A DNA stretch of 64,000 bases, taken from assembly GCA_900470445.1 (NCBI GenBank), contig UCAU01000026.1, positions 62,001 to 126,000 on the forward strand. Reading direction: 5' to 3'. Position numbers and translations under genes: made by a program. Shown one piece after another: positions 10,858 through 28,280 of the stretch. The notes under the pieces were generated by a model. It was not told the DNA's origin. It saw only the letters and a program-made list of their open reading frames with translations, and did not search any database. This DNA is from Hyphomicrobiales bacterium. Its GTDB lineage: Bacteria; Pseudomonadota; Alphaproteobacteria; Rhizobiales; Devosiaceae. The number at the start of each line of letters is the position of its first letter. Within the stretch, counting starts at the first letter, position 1.

Positions 10858-11724
10858 TTAGTAGACGTAGACTGTCAGTTGCGAGCCGGAGCGTTTGACC
10901 GCGAAGACGCGGTCTGGCCCGAAGCTGGCGCGGCTGAGCGAAGTGCTGATCAGCGCGTCGTTCATGACGGCGTTCTGCAAGGCTGGGCCAAAGCCCGAGC
11001 CGTCCAACTGGCCTTGCAGCCAGACCCGGATTTCCGGGCATACGCCGACACGCTGGATCTGCACATTCGAGGCGCGGGCCCAGGAAGCATCCATGCGGGT
11101 CGAACGCACCAGGCGCACCAGCTGGTTGGGCGACTGGCCGGCACAGGCCGCATTCGCGAAGCCACCGGCTCCGCCGCCGCCGGGCAGGATGCCACCAGGG
11201 CCTCCGGGACCGCCAGGTCCGCCGGGGCCACCAGGACCTCCCGGCCCGCCAGGATTGCCCGGTCCGCCGGGGCCTCCCGGCCCGCCGGGATTGCCGATCC
11301 CGATGCCGATATCGATCAGGCTTTCGCCACCGACATTGGCGGTAGCCCTCACCGTATTATTGAGCAGGTTCGCCTCGGCATCCACGAGACCGCCGCTGCC
11401 GCCGACCCCCACATTGGCATTGGCGATCGAGCCGCCATTGCCGACATTGGCATCGACACCCAACAGGCCGCTATCCCCTCCGCTACTGACAGTGGCCGTC
11501 GCCAGTGGATCGGAGCCGCCCACATTAACGTCGAGCACGCTATCGTTGCCGCCCAGACCGACATTGACGAGACCGGAGTCCGAAGCAGACCCCGAGCTGA
11601 TATTGACTAAGCTATTATCATCGCCGCTGCCCAGAATACCTCCAAGCAAACCTTCGGAGAAGGCAGGCATCGCCGTGCCGGCAAGCAAGATGCCGGCAAG
11701 AACTGTTGAAACAACTCTCCTCAT
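10858..11724 (-). CDS. Secreted protein with a collagen-like Gly-X-Pro stretch
   Basis: 288 residues. A signal peptide (MRRVVSTVLAGILLAG, cleavage near AFSEG) is followed by a Gly/Asn/Val/Ser-rich region at about 25-140 with recurring VNVGLGG, VNVGGSD and ANVGVGG units, which look like short beta-roll strands. Residues 144-176 are eleven uninterrupted Gly-X-Pro triplets (GNP or GGP). A Gly-rich hinge leads to a globular C-terminal domain (about 190-288) with two Cys and no family I recognise. The plan is stalk plus head, as in bacterial collagen-like surface proteins. No sorting signal or membrane anchor is visible. Function unknown. It has its own transcript ending at the shared hairpin. Confidence 0.8.
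   Translation of the reverse strand: MRRVVSTVLAGILLAGTAMPAFSEGLLGGILGSGDDNSLVNISSGSASDSGLVNVGLGGNDSVLDVNVGGSDPLATATVSSGGDSGLLGVDANVGNGGSIANANVGVGGSGGLVDAEANLLNNTVRATANVGGESLIDIGIGIGNPGGPGGPGGPGNPGGPGGPGGPGGPGGPGGPGGILPGGGGAGGFANAACAGQSPNQLVRLVRSTRMDASWARASNVQIQRVGVCPEIRVWLQGQLDGSGFGPALQNAVMNDALISTSLSRASFGPDRVFAVKRSGSQLTVYVY
11197..11295 (-). repeat. Tandem 9-bp repeat encoding (Gly-X-Pro)11
   Basis: Eleven 9-bp units coding GNP or GGP lie inside the collagen-like gene. Codons vary between units (proline ccg/cct/cca; glycine ggc/ggt/ggg/gga), so the protein repeat is conserved more than the DNA repeat. Copy number may differ between strains. Confidence 0.85.
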
Positions 11725-11886: not shown

Positions 11887-11918
11887 AAAAAAGGACGCGA
11901 AACCGAGGTTTCGCGTCC
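11887..11918 (-). terminator. Intrinsic terminator with T run
   Basis: On the minus strand GGACGCGAAACC and GGTTTCGCGTCC form a 12-bp stem with a 2-nt centre, followed directly by TTTTTTATTG. This is the best Rho-independent terminator in the window. It sits about 165 nt beyond the response-regulator stop. Confidence 0.85.
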
Positions 11919-12075
11919 CACCGGAGACACCACAAAGGAGCGTCAGCCTCTGCGGCAGTCCACCGAAGGTTGGCGCATCGAAACGGCGACACGCCAAGCC
12001 TGGGCCCGTCATTGGCGGGCTCGGTAAACTAACGGGGTTGGCAAGCATGGGTTCCCGCGCGAGGAAAGACGTGAT
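11919..12075 (-). ncRNA. Candidate structured RNA upstream of the terminator
   Basis: Besides the terminator hairpin, two more stems can be paired by eye: 12002-12008 with 12016-12022 (7 bp, one G-U) and 11970-11975 with 11992-11997 (6 bp). Such spacing suits a small RNA or a structured 3' UTR. I recognise no known RNA family and no clear promoter, so this is only a candidate. Confidence 0.25.
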
Positions 12076-12082
12076 CGGCTGA

Positions 12083-13012
12083 TCAATCCTCCAATGAGGA
12101 TTGCAGCACATGGGTGGCGCGGATGGCCGCCGAGGCGCGGTTTTCCACCCCAAGCTTGGAATAGACCTGTTCCAAATGCTTGTTCACCGTGCGCGGGCTG
12201 AGCCCAAGGATGTCCCCAATATCGCGGTTGGACTTGCCGCGGGCGATCCATAACAGCACTTCGCTTTCGCGCTGCGTCAGGCCGAACTGGCGGCGCAGAA
12301 TGCCATCCTGGTTCTCGTCGCCGGGGGTGAGCAGGCGGAACAGATATTCGTCAGCCCCGATCATGCCCAGGCACATCAGCTGGATGCGCGCGCCATTGCC
12401 GGGCTCCAGCATCAGGCTATCGCCGGCAATCGAATTGGCACCGGCGCGGGCATCGAGCCAGGGCCGGACTTGGGCAGCGATGAAGGCAGCAGCATCCATG
12501 CCGGGCATGGTGCGCTCCAGTAGCTTACCCGCCTGCGGCGTCGCCCACAGCGTTACGCCGCCGCTGGACAGCGCCATCAAATGCCGGCCGGCGGCGTCGA
12601 GCGCCACCCGTGCGCTTTGCGCCCGGCGGGCATTGGCCAGATGCACGCGGATGCGGGCGCGTAGCTCGTCGAGATTGATGGGCTTGGTGAGATAATCCAC
12701 CCCACCCACATCGAGCGCATGCACGATATGCTCGGTTTCGGTCAGCCCGGTCATGAAGATCACCGGCACCTGCGCCACGCTCGACATCGCCTTGAGGCGC
12801 GTGCAGGTTTCAAAGCCGTCCAGCCCCGGCATCACCGCATCCATCAGGATGATATCGGGCACGATCTTGCCGGCAATACTGAGCGCCGCCTCGCCGCTGC
12901 GGGCGAGCAGGACCGTGACGCCTTCGGCCTCCAGAGCCGTGGTCAGGAAGCTCAATGACTCAATGGAGTCATCGACCACCAGGGCAATATACTGCTTCTC
13001 AACTTCGCTCAT
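12083..13012 (-). CDS. Response regulator, receiver plus LuxR-type HTH
   Basis: 309 residues. The receiver domain (about 8-125) has acidic pocket D14/D15, phospho-acceptor D58 in IILMDAVMPG, T88 in FMTG and K110 in TKPI. A linker of about 100 residues (about 130-240) follows, longer than in NarL-type regulators and possibly PAS-like. The C-terminal LuxR/GerE helix-turn-helix (about 245-305) reads LTQRESEVLLWIARGKSN and LGLSPRTVNKHLEQVYSKLG. The start overlaps the end of the sensor kinase gene by 14 nt, so the two are translationally coupled and almost certainly cognate. Position suggests control of the divergent urt/ure genes. Confidence 0.92.
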   Translation of the reverse strand: MSEVEKQYIALVVDDSIESLSFLTTALEAEGVTVLLARSGEAALSIAGKIVPDIILMDAVMPGLDGFETCTRLKAMSSVAQVPVIFMTGLTETEHIVHALDVGGVDYLTKPINLDELRARIRVHLANARRAQSARVALDAAGRHLMALSSGGVTLWATPQAGKLLERTMPGMDAAAFIAAQVRPWLDARAGANSIAGDSLMLEPGNGARIQLMCLGMIGADEYLFRLLTPGDENQDGILRRQFGLTQRESEVLLWIARGKSNRDIGDILGLSPRTVNKHLEQVYSKLGVENRASAAIRATHVLQSSLED

Positions 13013-16000
13013 TTTCGCCCACGCTGTTGAGGATCGCGGCATAGCCGTCGAAATCGTAGGTCTCGATCTGCTGGCGCAAAGCCGCGACCAGCGGACCATG
13101 GCGCGGATCATCGGCCAGCGCCGAGAGCCGCGCATCAATGCCGCGGACATGACCGATCTCGCCCAGCGCCAGAAGCTCGCCAACCACATCGGCACCGGGC
13201 GAAACAATGTCCGCTGCCGGGGTCACCGGAGCATCCACAGCCGCTTGATCCTCAACCCAGCTGATGCCCAGATGCGCGCCAAGCTTGTCGAGCAACTGTC
13301 CATAATTGAGCGGCTTGGCCATGCTGTCACTATGGCCGGTGTCGGTCGTGGGCTGGCCCAGGCCATCGCCGATATTGGCCGAGAGCATGATGATTGGGGC
13401 GCCCTGCCCGCCATCGCGCAGCTTTTCCACCAGTTCCCAGCCATTCATTCCGGGCATCAGGATATCCACGAAGAACAGGTCCGGCTTGATGGCTTCGACC
13501 AGGGTCAGGCAATTGGGGCCATCGACCGCCGTCAGCACGGTAAAGTCGAGCGGCACCAGCAATTCGCGCATCATTTCGCGGTGTTCGGCATTGTCGTCAA
13601 CCACCATGATGGTGCGGCGCGGCCCGCTATAGGTGCGGATGCGCAGCTCCTCATGCGGCTTGGCGGCGGGGCGTTCTACCCGAGCAAGCATCAGGCGCAC
13701 CTTGAAGGTGGAGCCTGTGCCAGGCGTGCTCTGCACCTGGATTTCCCCGCCCAGCGTCTCAGCCAGCAGCTTGGTGATAGTGAGGCCCAGCCCCAGCCCC
13801 GGCGTCAGCCGATTGCGCTCGGCCTCGCCACGCACAAAGGGCTCGAACACCCGGCCCAGATCGGCCTCGCCAATGCCGTGGCCGCTATCAGTAACGGTGA
13901 AGGTGGCCACCTGCGAGCGATAGGCGACCTCGAAGGACACAAAGCCGGTGTCGGTGAACTTGATGGCGTTGGACAAAAGGTTGACCAGAATCTGCCGCAA
14001 CCGCTTTTCATCGGTGCGCACGAATTGCGGCAGGTTGGGCGCGACCTTGTAGCGGAATTCCAGCCCCTTGGCCTCGCCCTGCAGGCGGAACATTTCGCGG
14101 ATCTGGCTGAGGAAATCGTGGATATTGATCTCGTTGGAATAGACCTGCAATCGCCCCGCCTCGATACGGGAAATATCGAGCAGCCCATCGATCAGGCCCG
14201 ACAAATGCTCGGCACTGCGGCGGATAACCTTGACCGAGGCACGGCGCGGGGCCGGCACGGTCTCGTCACGTTCGAGGATTTGCGCATAGCCCAGCACGGC
14301 ATTGAGCGGGGTGCGCAATTCGTGGCTGAGGCCGACCACATAGCGGCTCTTGGCCTGATTAGCGGCTTCGGCCACTTCCTTGGCCTTTTGCAGGGCCGCG
14401 TCGGTGCGGTTATGGGCGGCGATTTCCTTCATCAGCAGCGTGTTCTGGCGCGAGCTTTCTTCCTCGGCCACGAGGCGGCTGTCATGCGCCAGCACCAGGA
14501 ACCAGGCGACGATGCCCGCCACCACCGCAAAGACGAAGAAGACCACGAGGATGGTGCCGCCCACCACCTCCTCGGTGTCAGGCGCCGCGCCGGCGGCGAA
14601 ATAGTAGATCAGGCCGAGGATCGACCCGATCAGCGCCAGCGAAATGCAGAACGATATGCCATAGCGGCCCAGCCGGCTTTGCAGCTTGTCGATCGCCCAG
14701 TCGGGCAGGATGCTGGCGGCGACGGCTCGGGTCTGCGCGCGGAAATGCGCATTGGGCTTGCACATGTCGTGGCAGCGCGCATCAAGCGAACAGCACAGCG
14801 AGCAGATCGGAGCCGCATAGGCGGGGCACCACGCCATGTCCTCGGGCTCGAACGGGTGCTCGCAAATCGAGCAGGTGACTGATTTCAGATTCTGCCACTG
14901 CTTGCGGGGCTTGCGCGCCAGATAATATTTGCCCTTGGTTGCCCAGGCGATGGTGGGCGAGGCGATGAGGGCCACGACCAGCGCGATATAGGGCGCCAAA
15001 GCCGCCGCCATGTCGCCAAAGGCCCCGAAATGGGCCACCAGCGCCACCACGGCCGAGAGCAGCATGGAGCCCAGGCCCACCGGGTTGATGTCATAGAGAT
15101 GCGCGCGCTTGAATTCGATGCCGGGCGGGGCGAGGCCCAGCGGCTTGTTGATGAACAGGTCAGCGGAGATCGAACACAGCCAGGCCATGGCGATGATCGA
15201 AAAAATGCCCAGGGTTTCTTCCAGCAGCCGATAGATGCCCAGCTCCATCAGCAGCAGCGCGATGCCGACATTGAACAGCAGCCAGACCACGCGGCCGGGA
15301 TGGCTGTGGGTCAGGCGCGAGAAGAAGTTCGACCAGGCGAGCGAACCTGCATAGGCGTTCATCACATTGATCTTGAGCTGGCTGACCACCACGAACACGG
15401 CCATCAGCAGCAACGCCACCACCTCATTGGGGATCATGTAGCCAAAGGCGATGGAATACATATAGCCGGGCTCGGAGGCATGCTCGGGCGAGACGCCCGC
15501 TGAGAGCGCCAGATAAGCGAGGAACGAGCCGGCCAAGAGCTTGGGCGCGCCAACCACCACCCACCCTGCTCCCGCCAGGAATATCGCCAGTTTTTGCCGG
15601 AGCTTTGGGCTGCCATCGGCCGGCAGGAAGCGCAGGAAATCGACCTGCTCGCCAATCTGGGTCATCAGCGCCAGAATCACCGCCGAGGCCGCGCCGAATT
15701 TGGCGACATCGAAGGGCGCAATACTGCCCGCCACGCCTTCGGGCTGCCCCAGGCCGCCAAAGGCGCGCCACAGGTCGAACTTCTCCCAATCCATGAAGGC
15801 GATGAAGAAGAACGGCGCGATATTGAGAATGATCCAGATCGGCTGGGTCCAGATCTGGAACCGGCTGATCATCCGCACGCCATGCGTCACCAGCGGAATG
15901 ACGATGATGGCGCTGATGATATGGCCGATCCACAGCGGAATGCCGAACGCCAATTGCAGGGCGCTCGACATGATCGAGGCCTCGATGGCGAACAGGATGA

Positions 16001-16376
16001 AGGTGAAGCTGGCATAGATCAGCGAGGTGATGGTCGAGCCGATATAGCCAAAGCTGGCGCCCCGGGTCAGCAGGTCGATATCCACGCCATGCCGCCGCGC
16101 ATAGCGCGAGATCGGCACCCCGACCAGCAGGATAGCGATGGACGCGACCAACACCGCGATCATCGCATTGGTCGTGCCATAGGAAAGCGTGATCGCCCCG
16201 CCAATGGCTTCGAGCGCCAGGAACGAGATGGCCCCTATCGCGGTCTGCGAGATGGTGTCGCTGGAATATCGGCGCGCCGATTTTGCGGTAAAGCGCAGCG
16301 CATAGTCTTCCAGCGTCTGGTCGGCGACCCAGCGATTATATTCGCGCCTGATCGGAATAATTCGCTGCCGCGCCAT
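12999..16376 (-). CDS. NCS1-permease / Cys-rich / hybrid sensor histidine kinase
   Basis: 1125 residues in four parts. Residues 1 to about 485 are a full-length NCS1-like (purine-cytosine permease) membrane domain with about 12 hydrophobic segments. Residues 502-539 hold eight Cys (502, 505, 517, 525, 528, 529, 535, 539), spaced like a metal-binding module. Two further membrane helices follow (about 571-593 and 606-630). The cytoplasmic kinase has His685 in GLSHELRTP, N box NLLSNAIKF, G1 DSGHGIG and G2 GLGLGL. A receiver follows with D927/D928, phospho-site D971 and K1021, then a helical tail (about 1060-1125) without an obvious Hpt histidine. Known transporter-type sensors such as CbrA use an SLC5 domain; here an NCS1 domain takes that place. 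It is divergent from urtA, so urea or a nitrogenous base is the probable cue (inference). Confidence 0.92.
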   Translation of the reverse strand: MARQRIIPIRREYNRWVADQTLEDYALRFTAKSARRYSSDTISQTAIGAISFLALEAIGGAITLSYGTTNAMIAVLVASIAILLVGVPISRYARRHGVDIDLLTRGASFGYIGSTITSLIYASFTFILFAIEASIMSSALQLAFGIPLWIGHIISAIIVIPLVTHGVRMISRFQIWTQPIWIILNIAPFFFIAFMDWEKFDLWRAFGGLGQPEGVAGSIAPFDVAKFGAASAVILALMTQIGEQVDFLRFLPADGSPKLRQKLAIFLAGAGWVVVGAPKLLAGSFLAYLALSAGVSPEHASEPGYMYSIAFGYMIPNEVVALLLMAVFVVVSQLKINVMNAYAGSLAWSNFFSRLTHSHPGRVVWLLFNVGIALLLMELGIYRLLEETLGIFSIIAMAWLCSISADLFINKPLGLAPPGIEFKRAHLYDINPVGLGSMLLSAVVALVAHFGAFGDMAAALAPYIALVVALIASPTIAWATKGKYYLARKPRKQWQNLKSVTCSICEHPFEPEDMAWCPAYAAPICSLCCSLDARCHDMCKPNAHFRAQTRAVAASILPDWAIDKLQSRLGRYGISFCISLALIGSILGLIYYFAAGAAPDTEEVVGGTILVVFFVFAVVAGIVAWFLVLAHDSRLVAEEESSRQNTLLMKEIAAHNRTDAALQKAKEVAEAANQAKSRYVVGLSHELRTPLNAVLGYAQILERDETVPAPRRASVKVIRRSAEHLSGLIDGLLDISRIEAGRLQVYSNEINIHDFLSQIREMFRLQGEAKGLEFRYKVAPNLPQFVRTDEKRLRQILVNLLSNAIKFTDTGFVSFEVAYRSQVATFTVTDSGHGIGEADLGRVFEPFVRGEAERNRLTPGLGLGLTITKLLAETLGGEIQVQSTPGTGSTFKVRLMLARVERPAAKPHEELRIRTYSGPRRTIMVVDDNAEHREMMRELLVPLDFTVLTAVDGPNCLTLVEAIKPDLFFVDILMPGMNGWELVEKLRDGGQGAPIIMLSANIGDGLGQPTTDTGHSDSMAKPLNYGQLLDKLGAHLGISWVEDQAAVDAPVTPAADIVSPGADVVGELLALGEIGHVRGIDARLSALADDPRHGPLVAALRQQIETYDFDGYAAILNSVGENERS

Positions 16377-16512: not shown

Positions 16513-16528
16513 TACGTCAATCGACGTA
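16513..16528. promoter_or_regulatory. Inverted repeat upstream of urtA, candidate operator
   Basis: TACGTC-aatc-GACGTA is a perfect 6-bp dyad in the 245-bp divergent region, about 95 bp before the urtA ATG. TAC...GTA dyads are usual for LuxR/NarL-type regulators. The response regulator encoded across the same divergent region is the obvious candidate binder. Confidence 0.4.
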
Positions 16529-16621: not shown

Positions 16622-17929
16622 ATGACAACTGGAAAACGCCTGCTGCGCACGCTCATGGCGCTGGGCCTGATGGCCGGAACCGCCCTGCCAGCCGTGCCGG
16701 CACTGGCGCAGGAAGACACCATCAAGGTGGGCATCCTGCACTCACTTTCGGGCACGATGGCAATCTCGGAAACCACGCTCAAGGACACCATGCTGTTCCT
16801 GATCGACGAGCAGAACAAGAAGGGCGGCGTTCTGGGCAAGCAGCTCGAGCCGGTCGTCGTCGATATCGCCTCGGATTGGCCGCTGGCCGCCGAACTCGCC
16901 CGCCAGCTGATCGAAGTCGACAAGGTCGACGTGGTGTTCGGCTGCTGGACTTCGGTGTGCCGCAAGTCCGTGCTGCCGGTGTTCGAGGAACTGAACGGCC
17001 TGCTGTTCTACCCCGTGCAATATGAGGGCGAAGAGAGCCAGCGCAACGTGTTCTATACCGGCGCCGCGCCCAACCAGCAGGCTATTCCGGCTGTTGATTA
17101 CCTGGCCAACGAAGAAGGCGTCGAACGCTGGGTTCTGGCCGGCACCGACTATGTCTATCCCCAGACCACCAACAAGATTCTTGAGCAATATCTCAAGGAC
17201 AAGGGCGTGGCTGCTGAAGACATCATGATCAACTATACCCCGTTCGGACATTCCGATTGGCAGACTATCGTCTCCGACATCAAGGCCTTCGGCTCGGCTG
17301 GCAAGAAGACCGCCGTGGTCTCTACCATCAATGGCGACGCCAACGTGCCGTTCTACCGCGAACTGGGCAACCAGGGCATCGACGCCGCCGATATTCCGGT
17401 CGTCGCCTTCTCGGTGGGTGAGGAAGAACTCGCTGGTCTCGACACCGCGCCGCTGGTGGGGCACCTCGCCGCCTGGAACTACTTCATGTCGGTCGATACC
17501 CCCGAGAATGAAGACTTCATCGCCGCCTGGCAGACCTTTATCGGCAGTACCGACCGCGTGACCAATGACCCGATGGAAGCCCATTATATCGGCTTCAACA
17601 TGTGGGTGAAGGCCGTGGAAGCTGCCGGCACCACCGATAGCGATGCTGTTATCGACTCGATCATTGGCGTCGCCGTACCGAACCTGTCCGGTGGCCTTGC
17701 CTCCATGGCGCCGAACCATCACATCACCAAGCCCGTGCTGATTGGCGAAATCCAGGACGATGGCCAGTTCGACATCGTCTACGAGACCCCCGGCCTGGTG
17801 CTGGGCGACGAGTGGAGCGACTTCCTGCCCGAGTCCAAGCCCCTGATCGCCGATTGGCGGGCGCCCCTGTCATGCGGCAATTTCAACACCGCCACCATGA
17901 CCTGCGGCGGCGCGACAACCACCCCATAA
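16622..17929 (+). CDS. urtA: Urea ABC transporter, periplasmic substrate-binding protein
   Basis: 435 residues. The signal peptide ends at PALAQED (about residue 30). The mature start DTIKVGILHSLSGTMAISE and the blocks VFGCWTSVCRKSVLPVFEE and NGLLFYPVQYEGEE are diagnostic of the UrtA/FmdD branch of leucine-binding-type receptors and distinguish it from amino-acid receptors. It captures urea (or short amides) in the periplasm for UrtBCDE. It is first in a five-gene urt operon and divergent from the permease-kinase gene. A hairpin just after the stop probably sets the high ratio of receptor to membrane components. Confidence 0.95.
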   Translation: MTTGKRLLRTLMALGLMAGTALPAVPALAQEDTIKVGILHSLSGTMAISETTLKDTMLFLIDEQNKKGGVLGKQLEPVVVDIASDWPLAAELARQLIEVDKVDVVFGCWTSVCRKSVLPVFEELNGLLFYPVQYEGEESQRNVFYTGAAPNQQAIPAVDYLANEEGVERWVLAGTDYVYPQTTNKILEQYLKDKGVAAEDIMINYTPFGHSDWQTIVSDIKAFGSAGKKTAVVSTINGDANVPFYRELGNQGIDAADIPVVAFSVGEEELAGLDTAPLVGHLAAWNYFMSVDTPENEDFIAAWQTFIGSTDRVTNDPMEAHYIGFNMWVKAVEAAGTTDSDAVIDSIIGVAVPNLSGGLASMAPNHHITKPVLIGEIQDDGQFDIVYETPGLVLGDEWSDFLPESKPLIADWRAPLSCGNFNTATMTCGGATTTP

Positions 17930-17967: not shown

Positions 17968-17999
17968 TGTTCTTGCCGTCTAACACCTGGAGAATGCCG

Positions 18000-19628
18000 A
18001 TGTCCGTCAAGCGCCTGTCCGCCGCATTGCTGGCGCTGTTCATGTTGCTGACCGCCATTGTGCCCAGCCTGGCCCAGCCATCGGATGCCGAACTCACCAC
18101 GCTGATCGACGCTCTGGCCCCCGGCGACTACGCTGACCGCGAAGCGGCCATTGCCGCGCTTGTCGCCACCGGCGATACCCGCGTATCCCCCATTCTCAAT
18201 ACCCTTTCCGAAGGCGACCTCTATGTCGTCGAATCGACCGGCCGCGTCGTCTATGTCGAGCGCCAAGGCGACAATTACGCCACCACCGATCCGCTGACCG
18301 GCGCCGAGCTGGGCGAAGTGGGCCGCCGCGACGCCGAGAAGGTGCGGGTCAACAACAATCTCCGCCGTGTCATCCGCTCGGCCATCGGGCAAATGACGCT
18401 GCTCAGCGACAATCTCGCAACCCGCCGCGCCGCGACCCAGTCGATCATGCGCGATGCCGACCCGGTCAACCTGCCGCTGCTCGATGAAGCTTTGGCCGCC
18501 GAGACTGATCCCAGCGTCAGGACGCTGATGGAAACGGCCCGAGCCTTTATCGTGCTGCAGGACCCCGACGCCAGCATTGAGGACCGCGAAGCCGCTGCTC
18601 CCGTGGTTGCCAAATCCGGCGATAGCTCGGCCATCACCGTGCTGCGTGGCGCCCTGGCCAATGCCCCCGATGCGCTCAAGGCCGATATCCAGGCCAGCCT
18701 GGATGGCCTCAACCGCGATGCGGCCGCCTGGGGCGCTGTGCAGAACGTCTGGTACGGCATCTCGCTCGGCTCGGTGCTGTTACTGGCGGCCATTGGCCTT
18801 GCCATCACCTTCGGCGTCATGGGCGTGATCAACATGGCGCATGGCGAAATGGTCATGCTGGGCGCTTACACCACCTTCATGACGCAGGCCCTGATCCGCC
18901 AATATGCCCCGGGGCTGGCCGAGTATTCGCTGGCCGTCGCCCTGCCCGCGGCGTTCCTCTTTACCGCGCTCGTTGGTATCGCCATCGAACGCGGCGTGAT
19001 CCGCTGGCTCTATGGTCGGCCGCTCGAAACCCTGCTGGCCACCTGGGGCATTTCGCTGATCCTGCAGCAATCGGTGCGCACCATCTTTGGGCCGACCAAC
19101 CAGATGGTGTCCAATCCCAGCTGGATGTCGGGCTCGGTGGCCTTTTACGGGCTGTCGATCACCTGGAACCGCTTCTGGATCGTCATGTTCGCCATCGCTG
19201 TCTTCCTCATGCTGCTGATGATCCTCAACCGCACCCCACTCGGCCTGCAAATGCGCGCCGTGACGCAAAACCGGCGCATGGCCTCGGCCATGGGCATCCG
19301 CACGCCGATGGTTGACGCGCTCACCTTTGGCCTGGGTTCGGGCATTGCCGGCCTCGCCGGCGTGGCGCTCAGCCAGATCGACAACGTCTCGCCCAATCTA
19401 GGCCAGGGCTACATCATCGACAGCTTCATGGTCGTAGTGTTCGGCGGGGTGGGCAATCTCTGGGGCACGCTGGTGGGCGCGCTCACCCTGGGCGTCGCCA
19501 ACAAATTCCTCGAACCCTATGCCGGCGCCGTACTCGGTAAAATCCTGATCCTCGTCATGATCATCCTCTTCATCCAGCGCCGGCCACGCGGCCTGTTTGC
19601 CCTCAAGGGAAGGGCGATCGAGCAATGA
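18000..19628 (+). CDS. urtB: Urea ABC transporter permease UrtB
   Basis: 542 residues from ATG 18000, chosen because GGAG at 17989-17992 is 7 nt upstream; ATG 17994 is too close. A signal-like segment and a periplasmic region of about 240 residues precede a LivH-type membrane domain (ITFGVMGVINMAHGEMVMLGAY onward), with about eight helices and the GGVGNLWGTLVGA loop. The long N-terminal region is normal for UrtB and absent from LivH. With UrtC it forms the urea channel of the importer. Confidence 0.94.
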   Translation: MSVKRLSAALLALFMLLTAIVPSLAQPSDAELTTLIDALAPGDYADREAAIAALVATGDTRVSPILNTLSEGDLYVVESTGRVVYVERQGDNYATTDPLTGAELGEVGRRDAEKVRVNNNLRRVIRSAIGQMTLLSDNLATRRAATQSIMRDADPVNLPLLDEALAAETDPSVRTLMETARAFIVLQDPDASIEDREAAAPVVAKSGDSSAITVLRGALANAPDALKADIQASLDGLNRDAAAWGAVQNVWYGISLGSVLLLAAIGLAITFGVMGVINMAHGEMVMLGAYTTFMTQALIRQYAPGLAEYSLAVALPAAFLFTALVGIAIERGVIRWLYGRPLETLLATWGISLILQQSVRTIFGPTNQMVSNPSWMSGSVAFYGLSITWNRFWIVMFAIAVFLMLLMILNRTPLGLQMRAVTQNRRMASAMGIRTPMVDALTFGLGSGIAGLAGVALSQIDNVSPNLGQGYIIDSFMVVVFGGVGNLWGTLVGALTLGVANKFLEPYAGAVLGKILILVMIILFIQRRPRGLFALKGRAIEQ

Positions 19629-19646
19629 GCGTGCAGCAAAAGAAAG

Positions 19647-19771
19647 CCCCCTCACCCGCCCTTCGGGCACCCTCTCCCACGAGGGGAGAGGGGTGGCTCC
19701 GGAGATACGGAAGCCACGGAGTTCCCTTCTCCCCTTGTGGGAGAAGGTGGCGCGCAGCGCCGGATGAGGGG
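19647..19771. repeat. Palindromic repeat element inside the urt operon
   Basis: The stretch opens CCCCTCACCCGCCCTTCGGG and closes with GCGCCGGATGAGGGG. Internal arms CTCTCCCACGAGGGGAGAG and CTTCTCCCCTTGTGGGAGAAG are each self-complementary. It is a composite mosaic repeat of a type common between alphaproteobacterial genes. It fills almost all of the urtB-urtC gap, so it would be transcribed as large hairpins within the operon. Confidence 0.75.
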
Positions 19772-19797
19772 TTCTCAGCGAGCCAGGGAGCAAAACA

Positions 19798-21018
19798 ATG
19801 ATCACACAAGCCCTGTTCCGCGCCCTCGACACCAAGGCCTGGTGGCTGATCGGCATTCTGCTTGCCGCCGCCATCCTCGTTCCGGCCAGCAATCTGCTGC
19901 TCTCGCCCGGCCAGTTCGGCTATGTGCCGACCTATCTGGTGTCGCTCTTCGGCAAATATCTGAGCTATGCCATGCTCGCACTCGCCCTCGATCTGGTCTG
20001 GGGCTATTGCGGCATTCTCTCGCTCGGCCATGGCGCCTTCTTTGCGCTGGGCGGCTATGGCATGGGCATGTATCTGATGCGCCAGATCGGCCCGCGCGGC
20101 GTCTATGGCAATCCCACGCTGCCCGATTTCATGGTGTTCCTCAACTACAAGGAACTCCCCTGGTATTGGCTGGGCTTCGACAATTTCTGGTTCGCCATGC
20201 TCATGGTCGTGCTGGTGCCGGGCATTCTCGCCTTTGTCTTCGGCTTCCTCGCCTTCCGCAGCCGGGTCACCGGGGTTTATCTCTCGATCATCACCCAGGC
20301 GATGACCTTTGCCCTGCTGCTGGCCTTCTTCCGTAACGATATGGGCTTTGGCGGCAATAATGGCCTGACCGACTTCAAGGATATTCTGGGCCAGCCCATC
20401 GCCGCGCAGACCACGCGCGTCTCGCTTTTTGCCGCGACTGCCATTGCCTTGGCGCTATCAGTCTTCGTCTGCTCGATGATCGTCAATTCCAAGCTGGGCA
20501 AGGTCATGGTCGCCATCCGCGACGCCGAAAGCCGCACCCGGTTCCTCGGCTATCGCGTGGAATATGTAAAACTCTTCGCCTTCACCGCCTCGGCCATCAT
20601 GGCGGGCATTGCCGGCGCGCTCTATGTGCCGCAGGTGGGCATCATCAACCCATCCGAATTCGAGCCATCCAATTCCATCGAAGTGGTGATCTGGACGGCT
20701 GTGGGCGGTCGCGGCACCATTATCGGTCCGATCATCGGGGCCATCCTGGTCAATCTGGGAAAATCCTATTTCACCAGCGCCCTGCCCGAATTCTGGCTGT
20801 TTGCCCTGGGCGCGCTCTTCGTCTTCGTCACGCTGTTCATGCCCAAGGGCATTGTCGGGCTGATCGGCCAATGGCGCACCATGACCACCAAGCGCGAACA
20901 GGCCCCGCCCAATGCGGCACTCCAGCCAAGCTCGCCCGAGACCTCGCAAGCCGCCGAGCGCGGCGAAGACCCTGCGACCATGCTGGTCGAGGGTGCCCAA
21001 CCCAAGCCCGCGGAGTAA
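19798..21018 (+). CDS. urtC: Urea ABC transporter permease UrtC
   Basis: 406 residues. It is a LivM-type permease with about ten helices (YAMLALALDLVWGYCGILSLGHGAFFALGGY; the GGRGTIIGPIIGAI loop). The UrtC hallmark of reading FNKELPWYW-like sequence (here LNYKELPWYWLGF) is present. The last 40 or so residues are a hydrophilic Pro/Ala/Glu-rich tail beyond the usual end. It pairs with UrtB. The repeat between urtB and urtC is the only break in the operon; urtD follows 4 nt after the stop. Confidence 0.94.
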   Translation: MITQALFRALDTKAWWLIGILLAAAILVPASNLLLSPGQFGYVPTYLVSLFGKYLSYAMLALALDLVWGYCGILSLGHGAFFALGGYGMGMYLMRQIGPRGVYGNPTLPDFMVFLNYKELPWYWLGFDNFWFAMLMVVLVPGILAFVFGFLAFRSRVTGVYLSIITQAMTFALLLAFFRNDMGFGGNNGLTDFKDILGQPIAAQTTRVSLFAATAIALALSVFVCSMIVNSKLGKVMVAIRDAESRTRFLGYRVEYVKLFAFTASAIMAGIAGALYVPQVGIINPSEFEPSNSIEVVIWTAVGGRGTIIGPIIGAILVNLGKSYFTSALPEFWLFALGALFVFVTLFMPKGIVGLIGQWRTMTTKREQAPPNAALQPSSPETSQAAERGEDPATMLVEGAQPKPAE

Positions 21019-21022
21019 GACC

Positions 21023-21772
21023 ATGGCCAAAGCCAGCGACACCATGCTCTATCTCGACGGCGTCTCGGTCGCCTTCGATGGCTTCAAGGCGATCAACAAT
21101 CTGTCGATCATCGTGCGGCCCGCCGAAATGCTGGCCATCATCGGGCCCAACGGCGCCGGCAAGACCACGATGATGGACATCATCACCGGCAAGACGCGTC
21201 CTGACTCGGGCGAAGTGCTGTTCGACGGGCGCACCGATCTCACCAAGCTCGACGAAGCCGCCATCGCCAATCTGGGCATTGGCCGCAAGTTCCAGAAGCC
21301 CACCGTGTTCGAAAGCCAGACCGTGTGGGACAATATCGAAATGGCGCTTAAAAAGCCGCGCGGGGTCTTCGCGACCCTGTTGTACGCGGCCAGCGCCGAC
21401 GACGTGGCCCGCATCGATGAAATCCTCGACACCGTGCGCCTTTCCGCCCGCAAGCACGACTTCGCCGCCAATCTCAGCCATGGGCAAAAGCAGTGGCTCG
21501 AAATCGGCATGCTATTGGCACAGGACCCTAAATTGCTGCTGGTCGATGAGCCGGTCGCCGGCATGACCGACAGCGAGACCGTGGAAACCGCCAAACTGCT
21601 CAAGCAAATCGCCACCACCCGTTCCGTCGTGGTCGTCGAACACGACATGAGCTTCGTGCGCGACCTCGGCTCCCGCGTCACCTGCCTGGCCGAAGGGTCA
21701 GTCCTCGCCGAGGGAAGTCTGGAACAAGTCAGCGCCAATCCGGTGGTGATCGAACGCTATTTGGGACGCTGA
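21023..21772 (+). CDS. urtD: Urea ABC transporter ATPase UrtD
   Basis: 249 residues from ATG 21023, just after the urtC stop; upstream ATGs lie inside urtC. It is LivG-like: Walker A GPNGAGKT at 41-48, the long insertion with LGIGRKFQKPTVFE, signature NLSHGQKQWLEIGM and Walker B LLLVDEPVAGM. LSHGQKQWLE instead of LSGGQ is typical of UrtD. It drives urea import with UrtE. Confidence 0.95.
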   Translation: MAKASDTMLYLDGVSVAFDGFKAINNLSIIVRPAEMLAIIGPNGAGKTTMMDIITGKTRPDSGEVLFDGRTDLTKLDEAAIANLGIGRKFQKPTVFESQTVWDNIEMALKKPRGVFATLLYAASADDVARIDEILDTVRLSARKHDFAANLSHGQKQWLEIGMLLAQDPKLLLVDEPVAGMTDSETVETAKLLKQIATTRSVVVVEHDMSFVRDLGSRVTCLAEGSVLAEGSLEQVSANPVVIERYLGR

Positions 21773-21773
21773 C

Positions 21774-22475
21774 ATGACCGCTCTCGCAATCCAATCCATC
21801 GACCTGCATTACGGCGCCGCCCAGGCGCTCAAGGCGGTATCGCTCGAGTGCAAGCCTAATCGCACCACCGCCGTACTCGGCCGCAACGGGGTGGGCAAAT
21901 CATCGACGCTGCGCGCCATTACCGGGATCAATGCGATCTCGGCGGGCGACATCACCTTCGGCGATCAGGTGCTCAAAAAGTCCCCGCCCTACCGGCGCGC
22001 GCGCATGGGCATTGGCTATGTGCCGCAGGGGCGCGAGATTTTCCCGCTGCTGACGGTCAAGGAAAACCTCGAAACCGGCTATGCCGGCCTCAAGCGGGCC
22101 GACCGCAACATTCCCACTTACATTTTCGAGCTGTTCCCCGTGCTCAAATCCATGTTGAGCCGGCGGGGCGGCGACCTCTCGGGTGGCCAGCAACAGCAAT
22201 TGGCCATTGGCCGTGCGCTGGTCACCCGACCCAAAGTCCTGGTGCTCGACGAACCGACCGAGGGTATCCAGCCCTCCATCATCAAGGATATCGGCCGGGC
22301 GCTGCAATTCCTGCGCGACGAAAAGGGCATGACCATTCTGCTGGTCGAACAATTCCTCGATTTCTGTCGCGAAATCGCCGACGACATCTATGTGATGGAT
22401 CGCGGCGAAATCCAGCATTCAGGCCCCGCCAGCGATCTCGATCTGCCGGAGGTGCGCCGGCATTTAATGGTCTAA
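21774..22475 (+). CDS. urtE: Urea ABC transporter ATPase UrtE
   Basis: 233 residues, LivF-like: Walker A GRNGVGKS at 36-43, GIGYVPQGREIFPLLTVKENL, signature DLSGGQQQQLAIGRAL and Walker B VLVLDEPTEGIQPSI. GRNGVGKSS and TEGIQPSI are UrtE-type variants. The ATG lies 1 nt after the urtD stop. It is the last urt gene and is followed by a bidirectional terminator. Confidence 0.95.
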   Translation: MTALAIQSIDLHYGAAQALKAVSLECKPNRTTAVLGRNGVGKSSTLRAITGINAISAGDITFGDQVLKKSPPYRRARMGIGYVPQGREIFPLLTVKENLETGYAGLKRADRNIPTYIFELFPVLKSMLSRRGGDLSGGQQQQLAIGRALVTRPKVLVLDEPTEGIQPSIIKDIGRALQFLRDEKGMTILLVEQFLDFCREIADDIYVMDRGEIQHSGPASDLDLPEVRRHLMV

Positions 22476-22930: not shown

Positions 22931-23755
22931 GTGCAAATCGTTGCCAATGACCCTGTGATAATGCAGCGCGCGCGCGGCGTCGGTCGGTTGACGACCAAGC
23001 TGCGCGACGACGCAACGCATCTGCAAAACCTCTATCAGGAGGGCTGTGCCAAGATCCGGCTGCCCCATACGCATGACCACAGTCTGGACGCGGTGCTGAT
23101 CAATACGGCGGGCGGCCTGACCGGTGGCGACCACATGCGCTGGGAAGCCGATATCGCCCCCGGCACCCGCACAACCATCACCACCCAGGCCTGCGAACGC
23201 ATCTATCGTTCGACCGGCGCCACTGCCCATGTCGAGACCCAACTCACGGTCGGCGCCGGCGCGCATCTCGACTGGCTGCCGCAGGAAACCATTCTTTTCG
23301 CCCAAAGCCGCTTCGAGCGTTCGATCAATATCGATCTTGCGCCCGATGCCAGCCTCACGGCCATCGAAGCCGTGCTGCTGGGCCGCGACGCTATGGGCGA
23401 GGACGCCCGCGACGCCCTGTTCCGCGACAATTGGCGCATTCGCCGCAATGGCAGGCTGGTGCATGCCGAAGCCACCCATATCGATGGCTCCGACCTCAAC
23501 CGCGACAATCCGGCGCTCCTGGCGGGCGCCCGCGCCTTTGCCACGATTCTGCATTTCGGCCCCGACCTGGCGCGCCGCCTCGAACAGGTCCGTGCGCTGC
23601 TGCCGGACGGGGCGACGGCCGCTGCCAGCGTCAGCGGTGAACGTCTCGTCATACGAGCCATGGCAAATTCCGGGCTTGCGCTTCGCCGCATGATCGTTCC
23701 AATTCTTGGCGCACTGGCTCGCGCCGGCACTCTGCCGCGTCTCTGGCATCTTTAG
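22931..23755 (+). CDS. ureD: Urease accessory protein UreD
   Basis: 274 residues from GTG 22931; ATG 22961 is an alternative and neither has a clear ribosome site. UreD signatures are present: VLINTAGGLTGGD, TTQACERIYRS, LDWLPQETILF and the closing LPRLWHL. UreD binds apo-urease first and, with UreF and UreG, forms the GTP-dependent complex that carbamylates the active-site lysine and inserts nickel. It is first in the urease operon, as in rhizobia. Confidence 0.92.
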   Translation: MQIVANDPVIMQRARGVGRLTTKLRDDATHLQNLYQEGCAKIRLPHTHDHSLDAVLINTAGGLTGGDHMRWEADIAPGTRTTITTQACERIYRSTGATAHVETQLTVGAGAHLDWLPQETILFAQSRFERSINIDLAPDASLTAIEAVLLGRDAMGEDARDALFRDNWRIRRNGRLVHAEATHIDGSDLNRDNPALLAGARAFATILHFGPDLARRLEQVRALLPDGATAAASVSGERLVIRAMANSGLALRRMIVPILGALARAGTLPRLWHL

Positions 23756-23764
23756 GACATCTCG

Positions 23765-24067
23765 ATGAATCTCACTCCGCGCGAAAAAGACAAACTGCTG
23801 ATCGCCATGGCGGCCATCGTGGCCCGCAAGCGGCTCGAGCGGGGCGTCAAGCTCAACCATCCCGAAGCGATCGCGCTGATCACCGATTTCGTGGTCGAAG
23901 GCGCCCGCGACGGCCGCCCGGTGGCCGAATTGATGGAGGCGGGCGCCCATGTCATCACCCGCGCCCAGGTAATGGAGGGCATCCCCGAGATGATCCACGA
24001 CATCCAGGTGGAAGCCACCTTCCCCGACGGCACCAAGCTCGTCACCGTCCACCAACCCATTCGCTAG
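23765..24067 (+). CDS. ureA: Urease gamma subunit
   Basis: 100 residues, the exact family length. [34 protein letters not shown] and [12 protein letters not shown] are the gamma-subunit hallmarks. It assembles with UreB and UreC into the (alpha-beta-gamma)3 enzyme in the cytoplasm. It lies 9 nt after ureD and 10 nt before ureB. Confidence 0.96.
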
Positions 24068-24077
24068 GAGCCTCGGC

Positions 24078-24383
24078 ATGATCCCCGGTGAAGTCATTCC
24101 CCAGTCCGGCGATATCGAACTCAATGTCGGTGCGCCCCAGATCACCATCGAGGTGGCCAATACCGGCGACCGGCCGATCCAGGTCGGCTCGCATTATCAT
24201 TTCTACGAAACCAATGCCGGGCTGCGGTTTGACCGCGAGCAGGCGCGCGGCATGCGGCTCGATATCGCCGCGGGCACTGCAGTGCGCTTTGAACCGGGCC
24301 AGACCCGCGAAGTCCGGCTCGTGCCATTGAGCGGCAGCCGCACCGTTTACGGCTTCCGCCAGCAGATCATGGGACAACTCTAA
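24078..24383 (+). CDS. ureB: Urease beta subunit
   Basis: 101 residues, the normal length for a separate beta subunit. [35 protein letters not shown] and RQEVRLV-like [11 protein letters not shown] are diagnostic. The subunits are unfused, as in most proteobacteria and unlike the fused Helicobacter form. Confidence 0.96.
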
Positions 24384-24387
24384 GACA

Positions 24388-24810
24388 ATGACTGAACAGA
24401 CCAATACCGACGCCCGCCTTGCCGACCTGCGCCAGCGCCTCGCCGCCGTATTGCGGGACCTGACCAAAGCCGGCGTGGACGATGGCGAAGCCATGTATCT
24501 GCTGGGCGGCTCGACCGTTGGCCTGATCGACCGCGGCGGCGCCAAGGACTGGCGCGGCTTCAAGACCGGCCTGCCCGCTGCCGATTTCGCCCGCCTGCTC
24601 AAGCAGATCGAAAAGGAAGGCAATCAGTTGGTCGCCGATGGCAAGGACAAGGCAGCCTATGCGCTGCAGGCGCTTGCCCTCTCGCTGGTCGCCAGCCGCC
24701 AGGACGACAAAATGCTGCACGAGGGCGAGCAATTGCTCGATACCGTCATCGCCGCCAGCGTCGCCCAATATCGCAAGCACGCCAAGCCCGCCGCGTCCAA
24801 GGCCCACTAA
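24388..24810 (+). CDS. Uncharacterised protein between ureB and ureC
   Basis: 140 residues, soluble, helical, Ala/Leu/Lys-rich, without signal peptide or motif I can name. It starts 4 nt after ureB and ends 12 nt before ureC, so it is co-transcribed and its position between structural genes is deliberate. Rhizobial urease operons also carry small unknown genes among the structural genes (general knowledge). A role in assembly or nickel handling is possible, but the sequence has only a few His and one region (MYLLGGSTVGLIDRGGAKDW) that stands out. Confidence 0.75.
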   Translation: MTEQTNTDARLADLRQRLAAVLRDLTKAGVDDGEAMYLLGGSTVGLIDRGGAKDWRGFKTGLPAADFARLLKQIEKEGNQLVADGKDKAAYALQALALSLVASRQDDKMLHEGEQLLDTVIAASVAQYRKHAKPAASKAH

Positions 24811-24822
24811 GCCGGAGTTACC

Positions 24823-26532
<1,710 letters not shown>

Positions 26533-26606
26533 GCGATTGCGCTTGGCGTAGAACGGGATAGTCTTGGCCTTGCGGCAATGGGTCCGCTCGGATTGGGGCA
26601 TCCAGA

Positions 26607-27056
26607 ATGATCTACGTCTTTGCACTGCTTATCGGGGTGGTTGCGGGCCTGCGGGCCATGACACCATTGGCCGCCATCAGTTGGGCGGCTTATCTGGGTT
26701 GGATCGACTTTGCCGGCACCCAGCTCAGCTTTATCGGCGCGCTGCCGACCGTCATCATCCTGACTATTCTGGCCATCGGCGAGCTGGTCACCGATCAATT
26801 GCCCAAGACGCCCAGCCGCAAGGTACCGGTCCAATTCGGCGCTCGCATCGTGCTCGGCGCCCTGTGTGGCGCGCTGCTGCCGGGCAATTGGATCATTGGC
26901 GCCATTCTGGGCGCGGTCGGTGCCGTCATCGGCACTTATGGCGGCGCCGAGGCGCGTTCCCGCCTGGCGGCATCCTTCGGCAAGGACCAGCCAGCCGCAC
27001 TGATCGAAGACGCGGTGGCCATCATCGCCGCGCTGCTGATCGTTTATCTCGTCTAA
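26607..27056 (+). CDS. DUF4126-type small membrane protein
   Basis: 149 residues with four or five hydrophobic segments. The start GLRAMTPLAAISWAAYLGW and the middle DQLPKTPSRKVPVQFGARI match the DUF4126 membrane family as I know it. Function unknown. It begins 74 nt after ureC and continues in the same direction, so it may share the urease transcript. It does not resemble the nickel permeases UreH or UreJ/HupE. Confidence 0.75.
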   Translation: MIYVFALLIGVVAGLRAMTPLAAISWAAYLGWIDFAGTQLSFIGALPTVIILTILAIGELVTDQLPKTPSRKVPVQFGARIVLGALCGALLPGNWIIGAILGAVGAVIGTYGGAEARSRLAASFGKDQPAALIEDAVAIIAALLIVYLV

Positions 27057-27132
27057 ATCGCTCAGCCGATCCAATTTCCGCCGCCTGCATGGTCCAATCT
27101 TGGCGCTGGACAAGCGAGGAGACAGCGCCAAA

Positions 27133-27528
27133 ATGACTCTTATGACCAAGACGATTCTTGCAGCAGCATTGCTTCTGACCGGCGCGGCGACGGCCGCGCA
27201 CGGCGTCGAGGCGTCGTTGTCGCTCACCTTGGGCACCGATGCCTCGGCCGATATCCAAAAGCGCACCGTGCAATATGAATGCGGAACCGGCGTGCCGCTG
27301 ACCGTCGATTACATCAATGCCTCGCCCAATTTCCTGGCGCTGGTCAATGTGCCCGAGGAAACCGAAAAGCTGGTCTTTGCCTCCGTCGTCTCCGGCTCGG
27401 GCGTGCGTTATGTCTCGGGTCAATGGGCCTGGCTGACGGAGGGCGCCGAAGCGAGCCTGCATGACACGACACTGGGCGAGGACGCTCCGGCAGTCAGCAC
27501 CTGCTCCGAAGCCAGCAACGCACCCTGA
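27133..27528 (+). CDS. MliC-family lysozyme-inhibitor-like protein
   Basis: 131 residues from ATG 27133 (ATG 27142 also possible; GAGGAGA upstream). A signal peptide MTKTILAAALLLTGAATAAHG precedes a MliC fold: VQYECGTGVPLTVDYIN, FASVVSGSGVRYVSG and QWAWLTEGAEASLHD. In MliC the SGSG.RY loop enters the C-type lysozyme active site. There is no lipobox, so it is periplasmic rather than lipid-anchored, closer to PliC in that respect. Its presence inside a urease cluster is unexplained. Confidence 0.8.
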   Translation: MTLMTKTILAAALLLTGAATAAHGVEASLSLTLGTDASADIQKRTVQYECGTGVPLTVDYINASPNFLALVNVPEETEKLVFASVVSGSGVRYVSGQWAWLTEGAEASLHDTTLGEDAPAVSTCSEASNAP

Positions 27529-27534
27529 GCCGAT

Positions 27535-28125
27535 ATGGACCCGCAGCCGATCCACCCAGAGCTGTTCCCCCATATTCGCATCGTCATGGGCATGGTTATC
27601 GGTCTTGGCATCACCCGTCTGCTGATGGGTGTTGCCGGGCTCATCCAGCATCCCAATCGCAACAAGCCCTCTACCGTCCATCTGCTCTGGGTGGGCTCGA
27701 TCCTGGTGGAACTGGTGCTGTTCTGGTGGTGGGAATTCGCCCTGTTCCAGATCAACAGCTGGTCGTTCGGGCTATTCTTCTTCCTCATTTTCTACGCCGT
27801 CACCCTGTTCCTGATGGCGGCTTTGCTCTTCCCTGACAACATCACCGAGTATGCCGGCTACGAGGATTTCTTCCTCAAGCGGCGCAAATGGTTCTTCGGC
27901 CTGTTGGCGGCGACCTTCGTGTTCGATTCCATCGATACGCTGATCAAGGGCGCCGAACATTGGGAGCGCTTCGGGCCGGATTACTTCCTGCAAGTGCCGT
28001 TCGGCCTGGTGCTCTGTGCGCTGGGCATCTGGTCGGCCAACCGGCGGCTGCATGTGGCCATACCGGCATTGCACATCGGTTATCAGCTCTATTGGATCAT
28101 CAAGGTCTTCAATACCATGACCTGA
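27535..28125 (+). CDS. Integral membrane protein, function unknown
   Basis: 196 residues with about six hydrophobic segments (IVMGMVIGLGITRLLMG; LLWVGSILVELVLFWWWEF; FGLFFFLIFYAVTLFLMAALLF; and others). It is rich in Trp and Phe. I do not recognise a named family. It starts 6 nt after the MliC-like gene and is probably co-transcribed with it. A palindromic repeat follows before ureE. Confidence 0.65.
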   Translation: MDPQPIHPELFPHIRIVMGMVIGLGITRLLMGVAGLIQHPNRNKPSTVHLLWVGSILVELVLFWWWEFALFQINSWSFGLFFFLIFYAVTLFLMAALLFPDNITEYAGYEDFFLKRRKWFFGLLAATFVFDSIDTLIKGAEHWERFGPDYFLQVPFGLVLCALGIWSANRRLHVAIPALHIGYQLYWIIKVFNTMT

Positions 28126-28132
28126 CGCCCCT

Positions 28133-28234
28133 GAGCGTTTCCAGCAAAAGTGGTGACGGTTTTGCGGTTCGGAAACGCGAAAACGAAAGACTTGGAGCTA
28201 TTTCAGCGTTTCAGAGAAACGGCGAAATGCTCTA
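28133..28234. repeat. Alphaproteobacterial palindromic repeat before ureE
   Basis: It begins GAGCGTTTCCAGCAAAAGTG, includes GGTTTTGCGGTTCGGAAACG and ends TTTCAGAGAAACGGCGAAAT then GCTCTAG; the two ends are mutually complementary. It resembles a very common Hyphomicrobiales intergenic repeat. It occupies most of the gap between the membrane-protein gene and ureE and could fold into a long hairpin in the transcript. Confidence 0.65.
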
Positions 28235-28280
28235 GGGTGGGTGCGGGCCGGGAAGCCTCGCTATCGTCGGAAAGTTCTTC

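Follow-up and report, generated by a model that had tools for sequence, protein, structure and literature searches.

A 64,000-nucleotide stretch of a Hyphomicrobiales bacterium (contig UCAU01000026.1, positions 62,001 to 126,000; the whole stretch is hereafter the window) encodes a hybrid sensor histidine kinase whose N-terminal part resembles an NCS1 permease, together with a LuxR-type response regulator and, on the opposite strand, genes for urea uptake and hydrolysis. We propose that this kinase is a transporter-derived receptor that responds to urea and short-chain amides by inducing their uptake, a reading that we consider probable and that builds on the domain architecture, the NCS1 fold, the conserved gene context and a DNA site that co-occurs with the sensor. 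The permease domain would bind urea (formamide or a similar small amide in other lineages), and the ensuing conformational change would pass through a cluster of eight cysteines (Cys8), probably braced by zinc, and then through the final pair of helices into the kinase. Phosphate would be handed on from His685 and the receiver with Asp971 to the regulator encoded by the overlapping gene, which is predicted to bind the palindrome TACGTC-N4-GACGTA between the kinase gene and urtA, and to activate, rather than repress, urtABCDE-ure and, probably, its own gene pair.

Architecture of the sensor and its locus

The features of the locus, in window coordinates, are as follows.

12999–16376, minus strand: hybrid sensor histidine kinase, 1125 residues, ATG start at 16376; order NCS1 permease, Cys8, two helices, HisKA, HATPase, receiver
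14913–16310, minus strand: NCS1-fold permease domain, approximately residues 23–488 (intermediate sequence and AlphaFold2 fold match)
14760–14873, minus strand: Cys8 module, residues 502–539, C-x2-C-x11-C-x7-C-x2-CC-x5-C-x3-C (alignment and profile)
14460–14675, minus strand: two long helices before the kinase, approximately residues 568–639, read as transmembrane (AlphaFold2 secondary structure; hydrophobic in the alignment)
14154–14351, minus strand: HisKA, residues 676–741, with His685 within HELRTPLN (Pfam)
13686–14015, minus strand: HATPase_c, residues 788–897 (Pfam)
13284–13610, minus strand: receiver (Response_reg), residues 923–1031, with Asp971 (Pfam)
12083–13012, minus strand: LuxR/FixJ-type response regulator, 309 residues, overlapping the kinase gene by 14 nucleotides (Pfam Response_reg and GerE/LuxR)
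16513–16528, no strand: palindrome TACGTCAATCGACGTA, putative operator for the regulator; distances to the ATG codons 93 bp (urtA) and 136 bp (kinase) (conservation)
16622–17929, plus strand: urtA, substrate-binding protein of a urea ATP-binding cassette (ABC) transporter (TIGR03407, 546.6 bits, above cut-off)
17973–22475, plus strand: urtBCDE (TIGR03409, TIGR03408, TIGR03411 and TIGR03410, above cut-off)
22931–30452, plus strand: urease cluster ureD ... ureC ... ureE ureF ureG, divergent from the kinase (NCBIfam and Pfam models)

With a HisKA domain carrying its histidine, an HATPase_c domain and a receiver carrying its aspartate, the 1125-residue protein is a hybrid histidine kinase. Its Cys8 module consists of cysteines 502, 505, 517, 525, 528, 529, 535 and 539, a span of 38 residues. 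An initial annotation, made from the DNA letters alone, had described a single 1125-residue chain with a permease, eight cysteines in 38 residues, two helices, His685 and D971, and this description holds to the residue. Its 14-nucleotide gene overlap agrees with the regulator start (13012) and the kinase end (12999), and the divergent orientation of the pair relative to urtABCDE is confirmed by the NCBIfam and Pfam models.

All eight cysteines are invariant in 10 aligned sequences (the window and nine relatives, down to 44% identity), and their exact spacing recurs in 172 of 173 rows, a set that includes near-duplicates and whose sole exception (L110) is interrupted by a stop at residue 181; the sensor architecture is therefore not a product of chance. 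The closest named relatives of the window are Devosia (86–87%), and the 1125-residue sensor is carried by 20 of the 37 genomes of the window's own genus in the relatives sample, the window genome counted. In 132 of the 139 rows with enough flank (171 proteins, less 32 without downstream sequence), the next gene downstream of the sensor encodes a homologue of the regulator.

The permease domain

The permease part of the window's sensor gives no match to Pfam Transp_cyt_pur (PF02133, the cytosine/purine/uracil/allantoin permease family) in a direct profile search and none in PDB sequence searches. Despite this, the NCS1 label of the initial annotation is upheld by an intermediate sequence and by fold. 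A standalone Klebsiella permease (P0001) is 40% identical to the sensor permease over 524 aligned positions and itself matches PF02133 at 1.1e-9, above the cut-off. An AlphaFold2 model of residues 1–640 (43 sequences, predicted local distance difference test score (pLDDT) 81.5) has CodB as its best structural match (Z 30.1, 394 residues aligned, root-mean-square deviation 3.6), with Mhp1 at Z 24.3–26.5 and the remaining LeuT-fold proteins at or below 22.9; the five top Foldseek matches are CodB and Mhp1. On the basis of the intermediate's match and the modelled fold, we assign the domain to NCS1. SLC5-type structures, from the same LeuT superfamily, also match the model (Z approximately 20–21) and rank below NCS1, a ranking that excludes nothing, and the structural-alignment identity of the sensor permease to CodB and Mhp1 is 13–17%.

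The substrates of CodB and Mhp1, whose fold is like that of residues ~23–488, are a nucleobase or hydantoin; neither protein, to our knowledge, has a kinase or a Cys8 module. Closeness in fold to CodB (cytosine) and Mhp1 (hydantoin) would suit a permease that senses a nucleobase, hydantoin or ureide as a typical NCS1 protein might, with urea merely the end product of the pathway. We regard this as highly improbable: the neighbours of the sensor are genes for the transport and hydrolysis of urea and formamide (among chosen genes that were mapped, with no systematic search for purine or allantoin genes), and its kinase-less relatives are located in urease and formamidase clusters.

Family distribution and gene context

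Across an even sample of 398 Pseudomonadota genomes, the sensor family has 57 copies in 52 genomes (13%); a match was obtained in 53 genomes, one of them merely a fragment. The context set of 56 copies derives from 61 rows after removal of two second pieces, a 49-residue fragment (G294), a kinase-less NCS1 protein (G251:C40) and one copy on a 4.8-kb contig (G282). Urea or amide genes lie within 10 kb of the sensor in all 56, the window included: a gene for an fmdD-type binding protein in 36, urtA in nine, urease in nine and formamidase alone in two. The initial annotation had named fusions lying mostly away from nitrogen genes as the outcome contrary to its claim, and this sample did not refute it. 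That claim, of a dedicated sensor for urea or a ureide or nucleobase, retains its tie to urea genes through these 56 copies and the palindrome at urtA. Its ligands are likely to be urea and short-chain amides such as formamide, in preference to nucleobases, hydantoins or allantoin; formamide-type contexts form the majority in the even sample.

Wherever an fmdD-type locus was available with wide flanks (25 loci), formamidase FmdA is encoded there too; the remaining 11 were read with a 1.5-kb flank only, one of them (G169) being a 65-residue fmdD match at a contig end. FmdA from two fmdD-type loci passes the NCBIfam formamidase model, and the fmdD-type proteins of those same loci also pass the urea-binding model TIGR03407, so sequence models alone cannot separate urea from amide substrates. 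The gene names FmdD/E/F are those that we presume to apply. Among the best 80 GTDB loci, urtA is present in 53, fmdD in 23 and neither in four, three of which are contig-limited. Genome and locus sets overlap throughout this work, and some Devosia genomes entered through two collections. A profiling paper, in the portion bearing on this system, predicted an amide, for instance acetamide or formamide, as the substrate of a Bradyrhizobium ABC system encoded beside a formamidase gene (PMC3098086).

A conserved palindrome upstream of urtA

Alignment of the Devosia kinase–urtA gaps reveals a single near-perfectly conserved island, TACGTCGATTGACGTA on the kinase strand, which is exact in 20 of 22 rows, the rest of the gap having diverged. 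We propose that the palindrome (exact form TACGTC-N4-GACGTA, relaxed form TACG-N8-CGTA) is a putative operator of the LuxR-type regulator; its geometry is comparable to the 7-2-7 arrangement of NarL-like sites. Of the 61 relatives, 21 contain the exact form, and in 19 of these it lies inside the kinase–urtA gap; this corresponds to 19 of 23 sensor-bearing genomes, and none of the 38 genomes without a sensor has the exact form. The four other sensor genomes comprise two without the exact site (G028 and G038) and two that have it elsewhere (G021 and G058).

Of 58 sensor loci, 55 have the relaxed site ahead of urtA, even when the kinase is kilobases away, versus 0 of 19 control urtA promoters from relatives without the sensor (20 control regions, one too short; Fisher p 3e-15, the rows not being independent). 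Among 51 fmd loci, 40 have it ahead of fmdD, and four of the 11 misses have the site before fmdA instead. The 58 urt and 51 fmd loci exclude loci fetched later, which were counted separately; among the latter, the site is present in three of five urt loci. Bradyrhizobium has variants of the form TACGCA-N4-TGCGTA, and a Klebsiella plasmid (L183) carries a site between urtA and the sensor that is one base from the exact form.

When two mismatches are permitted, shuffled versions of the window contain 0.61 matches on average versus one found, so the case for the site rests on conservation and not on its occurrence in a single window. The genome of the window has the relaxed site twice, at the kinase–urtA gap and inside a gene for an ABC-F-like ATPase (named by eye); the second was taken as a chance match. 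A reversed control pattern matches 18 times per strand in the same genome. Among the 61 relatives, the reversed control pattern occurs once in each of 12 genomes.

The Cys8 module

No Pfam family covers Cys8. A profile built on it gives 57 strong matches in the 398 genomes, identical with the 57 sensor copies, and two additional matches near E 0.001 that run through stops; within this sample, the module is restricted to the sensor family. The full module is nonetheless present in a kinase-less 559-residue permease of genome G703, and a kinase-less Klebsiella permease retains four of the cysteines, equivalent to 502, 505, 525 and 528. Judged from these two sequences, Cys8 belongs to the permease line and not to the kinase.

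Sequence matches of Cys8 in the PDB are mainly to the CxxC knuckle of zinc fingers (best E 0.0025). A fold search returned 168 matches at E ≤10 and none at ≤0.001, and domains of the RING, PHD or FYVE type are frequent among the 50 listed (model pLDDT 72). We infer a structural or coupling zinc, with two probable sites formed by residues 502/505/525/528 and 517/529/535/539. The initial annotation had suggested that the cluster adds a metal input such as zinc or nickel. Taken further, Cys8 would be a nickel or zinc sensor that reports the supply of the urease cofactor, with the permease just an anchor, and eight invariant cysteines together with an adjacent nickel-dependent urease, in the window and at other urt/ure loci, fit that idea. 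We nevertheless judge it very unlikely. Cys8 is equally invariant beside formamidase genes, where no urease gene lies in the stretch read, and is present in a kinase-less permease, and a nickel input is disfavoured on these grounds; in addition, the Klebsiella permease that does lie in a urease cluster keeps four cysteines only, and the residues of the permease are strongly conserved as well.

Kinase-less relatives and the origin of the sensor

Two close relatives lack a kinase. The first, the P0001 permease from Klebsiella pneumoniae CP125156.1 (L182:6941–8548), is a 535-residue NCS1 permease with half of Cys8, encoded directly after ureG; annotated as a cytosine permease, it is likely a urea permease. 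The second is the G703 protein (L206:10767–12446), encoded divergently from a sensor copy, with the genes for FmdA and an amidase of the CN-hydrolase type alongside. Two NCS1 permeases at a greater distance (26%) were found at L184:5950–9146 and L205:1453–2946. The Pantoea one of these has as gene neighbours a hydrolase of the nitrilase type, an ANTAR regulator and a binding protein, and its association with the hydrolase and the regulator suggests that amide transport predates the sensor.

In a quick tree with a distant NCS1 protein as root, both kinase-less permeases are placed outside all sensors. Labelling its tips as urt, fmd or ure needs at least five changes, which suggests several switches between urea and small-amide gene sets; from this tree, the family seems to have moved several times between gene sets for chemically similar substrates. 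No alignment column separates urt from fmd sensors at the threshold used.

Eleven conserved positions set the sensors apart from both kinase-less permeases. Position 55 is Asp in the kinase-less relatives and Leu (151), Met (4) or Cys (1) in the sensors (156 parsed rows, 16 unparsed rows left out). Position 343, Ser in the kinase-less relatives, carries Ala in 160 rows out of the 161 parsed (12 unparsed left out), the sole Ser belonging to the kinase-less permease itself. Transmembrane helices 1 and 8 have a role in ion sites, and the D55L and S343A replacements may reflect a loss of ion coupling in the sensors. Residues E132, Q240, D246, N337 and N340 of the permease core are common to sensors and kinase-less relatives. 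This conservation is what would be expected of a true transceptor, a protein that still transports and whose kinase reports transport and not mere binding, as distinct from a urea/amide receptor in which transport has been lost; the two differ on transport only. CbrA offers a precedent, having been reported, in the part of PMC7096432 that concerns it, with both transport and kinase activities. The replacements at positions 55 and 343, seen against two comparison proteins and with the role of these positions inferred, point the other way, and continued transport appears to us rather unlikely.

Observations that weigh against the proposal

Several results count against a receptor dedicated to urea and amides. 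Co-location is no proof of ligand: what the kinase reads might instead be transport flux, ammonium or some different signal. A second sample of 274 genomes yielded 15 further copies, of which seven have urea or amide genes within 10 kb, five have none and two are contig-limited, and a second copy in G690 lies about 10 kb from the fmdD gene of the first. The five of 13 testable copies without such a neighbour (G583 twice, G574, G482 and G639, with the flanks of G574 and G639 readable in part only) mean that the link between sensor and urea/amide genes is strong and not universal. The palindrome was not found in two of the five later-fetched urt loci and one later-fetched fmd locus (L240, L241 and L242), in seven loci beside urease alone, or in three non-alphaproteobacterial urt loci. 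Finally, the root of the tree rests on long branches, and only two close kinase-less permeases support a divergence from transporter to sensor.

Some of these points suit a co-inherited island of nitrogen genes, in which the kinase and regulator control something else or answer general nitrogen status: the context-free copies, the copies with other outputs and the lack of the site at urease-only loci. We give this little credence, as the site precedes urtA even when the kinase is several kilobases off and is absent from the 19 urtA promoters of sensor-less genomes.

Three of the five context-free copies have swapped outputs, namely PAS-GGDEF-EAL, PAS-kinase-receiver and a kinase without receiver. 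At L207:5849–9520, NCS1-Cys8 is fused to PAS-GGDEF-EAL, with no urea or amide gene among those mapped in the stretch read; such a fusion is a possible input into cyclic di-GMP turnover. Short sensors of 880–885 residues at L175 and L177 have a kinase without receiver and a formamidase gene a few kilobases off, and at L177 a receiver-kinase protein comes next in place of the LuxR-type regulator.

Comparison with known transporter-type sensors

CrbS/CrbR combines an SLC5-STAC hybrid kinase with a LuxR-type regulator in the acetate response, according to passages of PMC9100948 and PMC5715377. As far as those passages go, both systems share a transporter-fold input, a hybrid kinase with receiver, a separate LuxR-type regulator and control, here predicted, of the genes for the matching nutrient. 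They differ in that CrbS has an SLC5 domain and acetate genes, whereas the present sensor has an NCS1 domain, urea/amide genes and a Cys8 module in the linker between permease and kinase. That linker, with Cys8 and two helices, gives no Pfam match, in a Pfam set whose coverage of STAC is unconfirmed. We do not place the sensor in the SLC5/STAC family. In CbrA, a transporter domain fused to a histidine kinase contains a histidine pocket, as stated in an excerpt of PMC13022988; this protein differs in its SLC5-STAC-PAS architecture and its place in Pseudomonas carbon metabolism. The ammonium sensor kinase of Kuenenia is an Amt-histidine kinase in the account given in part of PMC5764959. It likewise fuses the fold of a nitrogen-compound transporter to a kinase, and differs in having the Amt fold and responding to ammonium. 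We take this kinase to be the one named Ks-Amt5.

The urea transport system (UTS) of K. pneumoniae ST307/CG307 comprises UrtA, UrtB and UrtC with the formamidase AmiF, as given in sections of PMC5506382 and PMC13060141; the terms 'sensor' and 'two-component' do not occur in the main texts of these two papers. Among the 533 PLSDB records that match the permease part, 342 are Klebsiella, at least one being the kinase-less permease of a chromosome-sized record. Two Klebsiella plasmid regions carry the sensor, urtABCDE and formamidase together; the regulator is annotated in one and corresponds in the other to an open reading frame with Response_reg and GerE. In combining urt and formamidase genes, these regions parallel the UTS as described. 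Among the literature matches listed, from a search that most subscription literature lay outside, we recognised no paper on an NCS1-fused kinase; apparently this is a common bacterial sensor that is undescribed within the literature searched.

Neighbouring features of the window

Past the kinase–regulator pair lies a terminator-like hairpin, one of three found in the window versus a shuffle mean of 4.1, i.e., no excess.

11892–11919, minus strand: terminator-like hairpin, 12-bp stem and T run

UrtB (17973–19628, plus strand) has 551 residues, of which the UrtB model spans 257–547 only; its long N-terminal part gives a weak, sub-threshold HEAT-repeat match. Three open reading frames separate ureC from ureE (26607–28125, plus strand), encoding a DUF4126 protein, a protein of the MliC lysozyme-inhibitor type and a 196-residue product without a Pfam match. 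Encoded at 10858–11724 on the minus strand is a 288-residue protein that looks secreted and contains a collagen-like Gly-Pro-Gly repeat; Pfam gives no match for it.

Significance

A broader proposal, on which our judgement is evenly balanced, is that NCS1-Cys8 constitutes a portable amide/urea input module, with a family-exclusive and probably two-zinc coupling piece that was already present in the ancestral permease. Hybrid kinases would have acquired it, and it would have been combined with further outputs as well (GGDEF-EAL, PAS-kinases and kinases without receiver), with a loss of transport (D55L and S343A). In many Pseudomonadota, Klebsiella plasmids included, it would be a main means by which the uptake of urea and formamide is inducibly controlled. 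The fused transporter sensors that turned up in the literature matches listed, as far as those sources describe them, are of the SLC5/STAC and Amt kinds, and NCS1 would add another transporter family with another linker. The predicted DNA site and the sensor together offer an answer to how bacteria may sense external urea or formamide before inducing uptake, and supply a candidate regulator for the urea/formamidase cluster on Klebsiella plasmids. The family would also represent a transition from permease to receptor for which kinase-less relatives are still extant for comparison.

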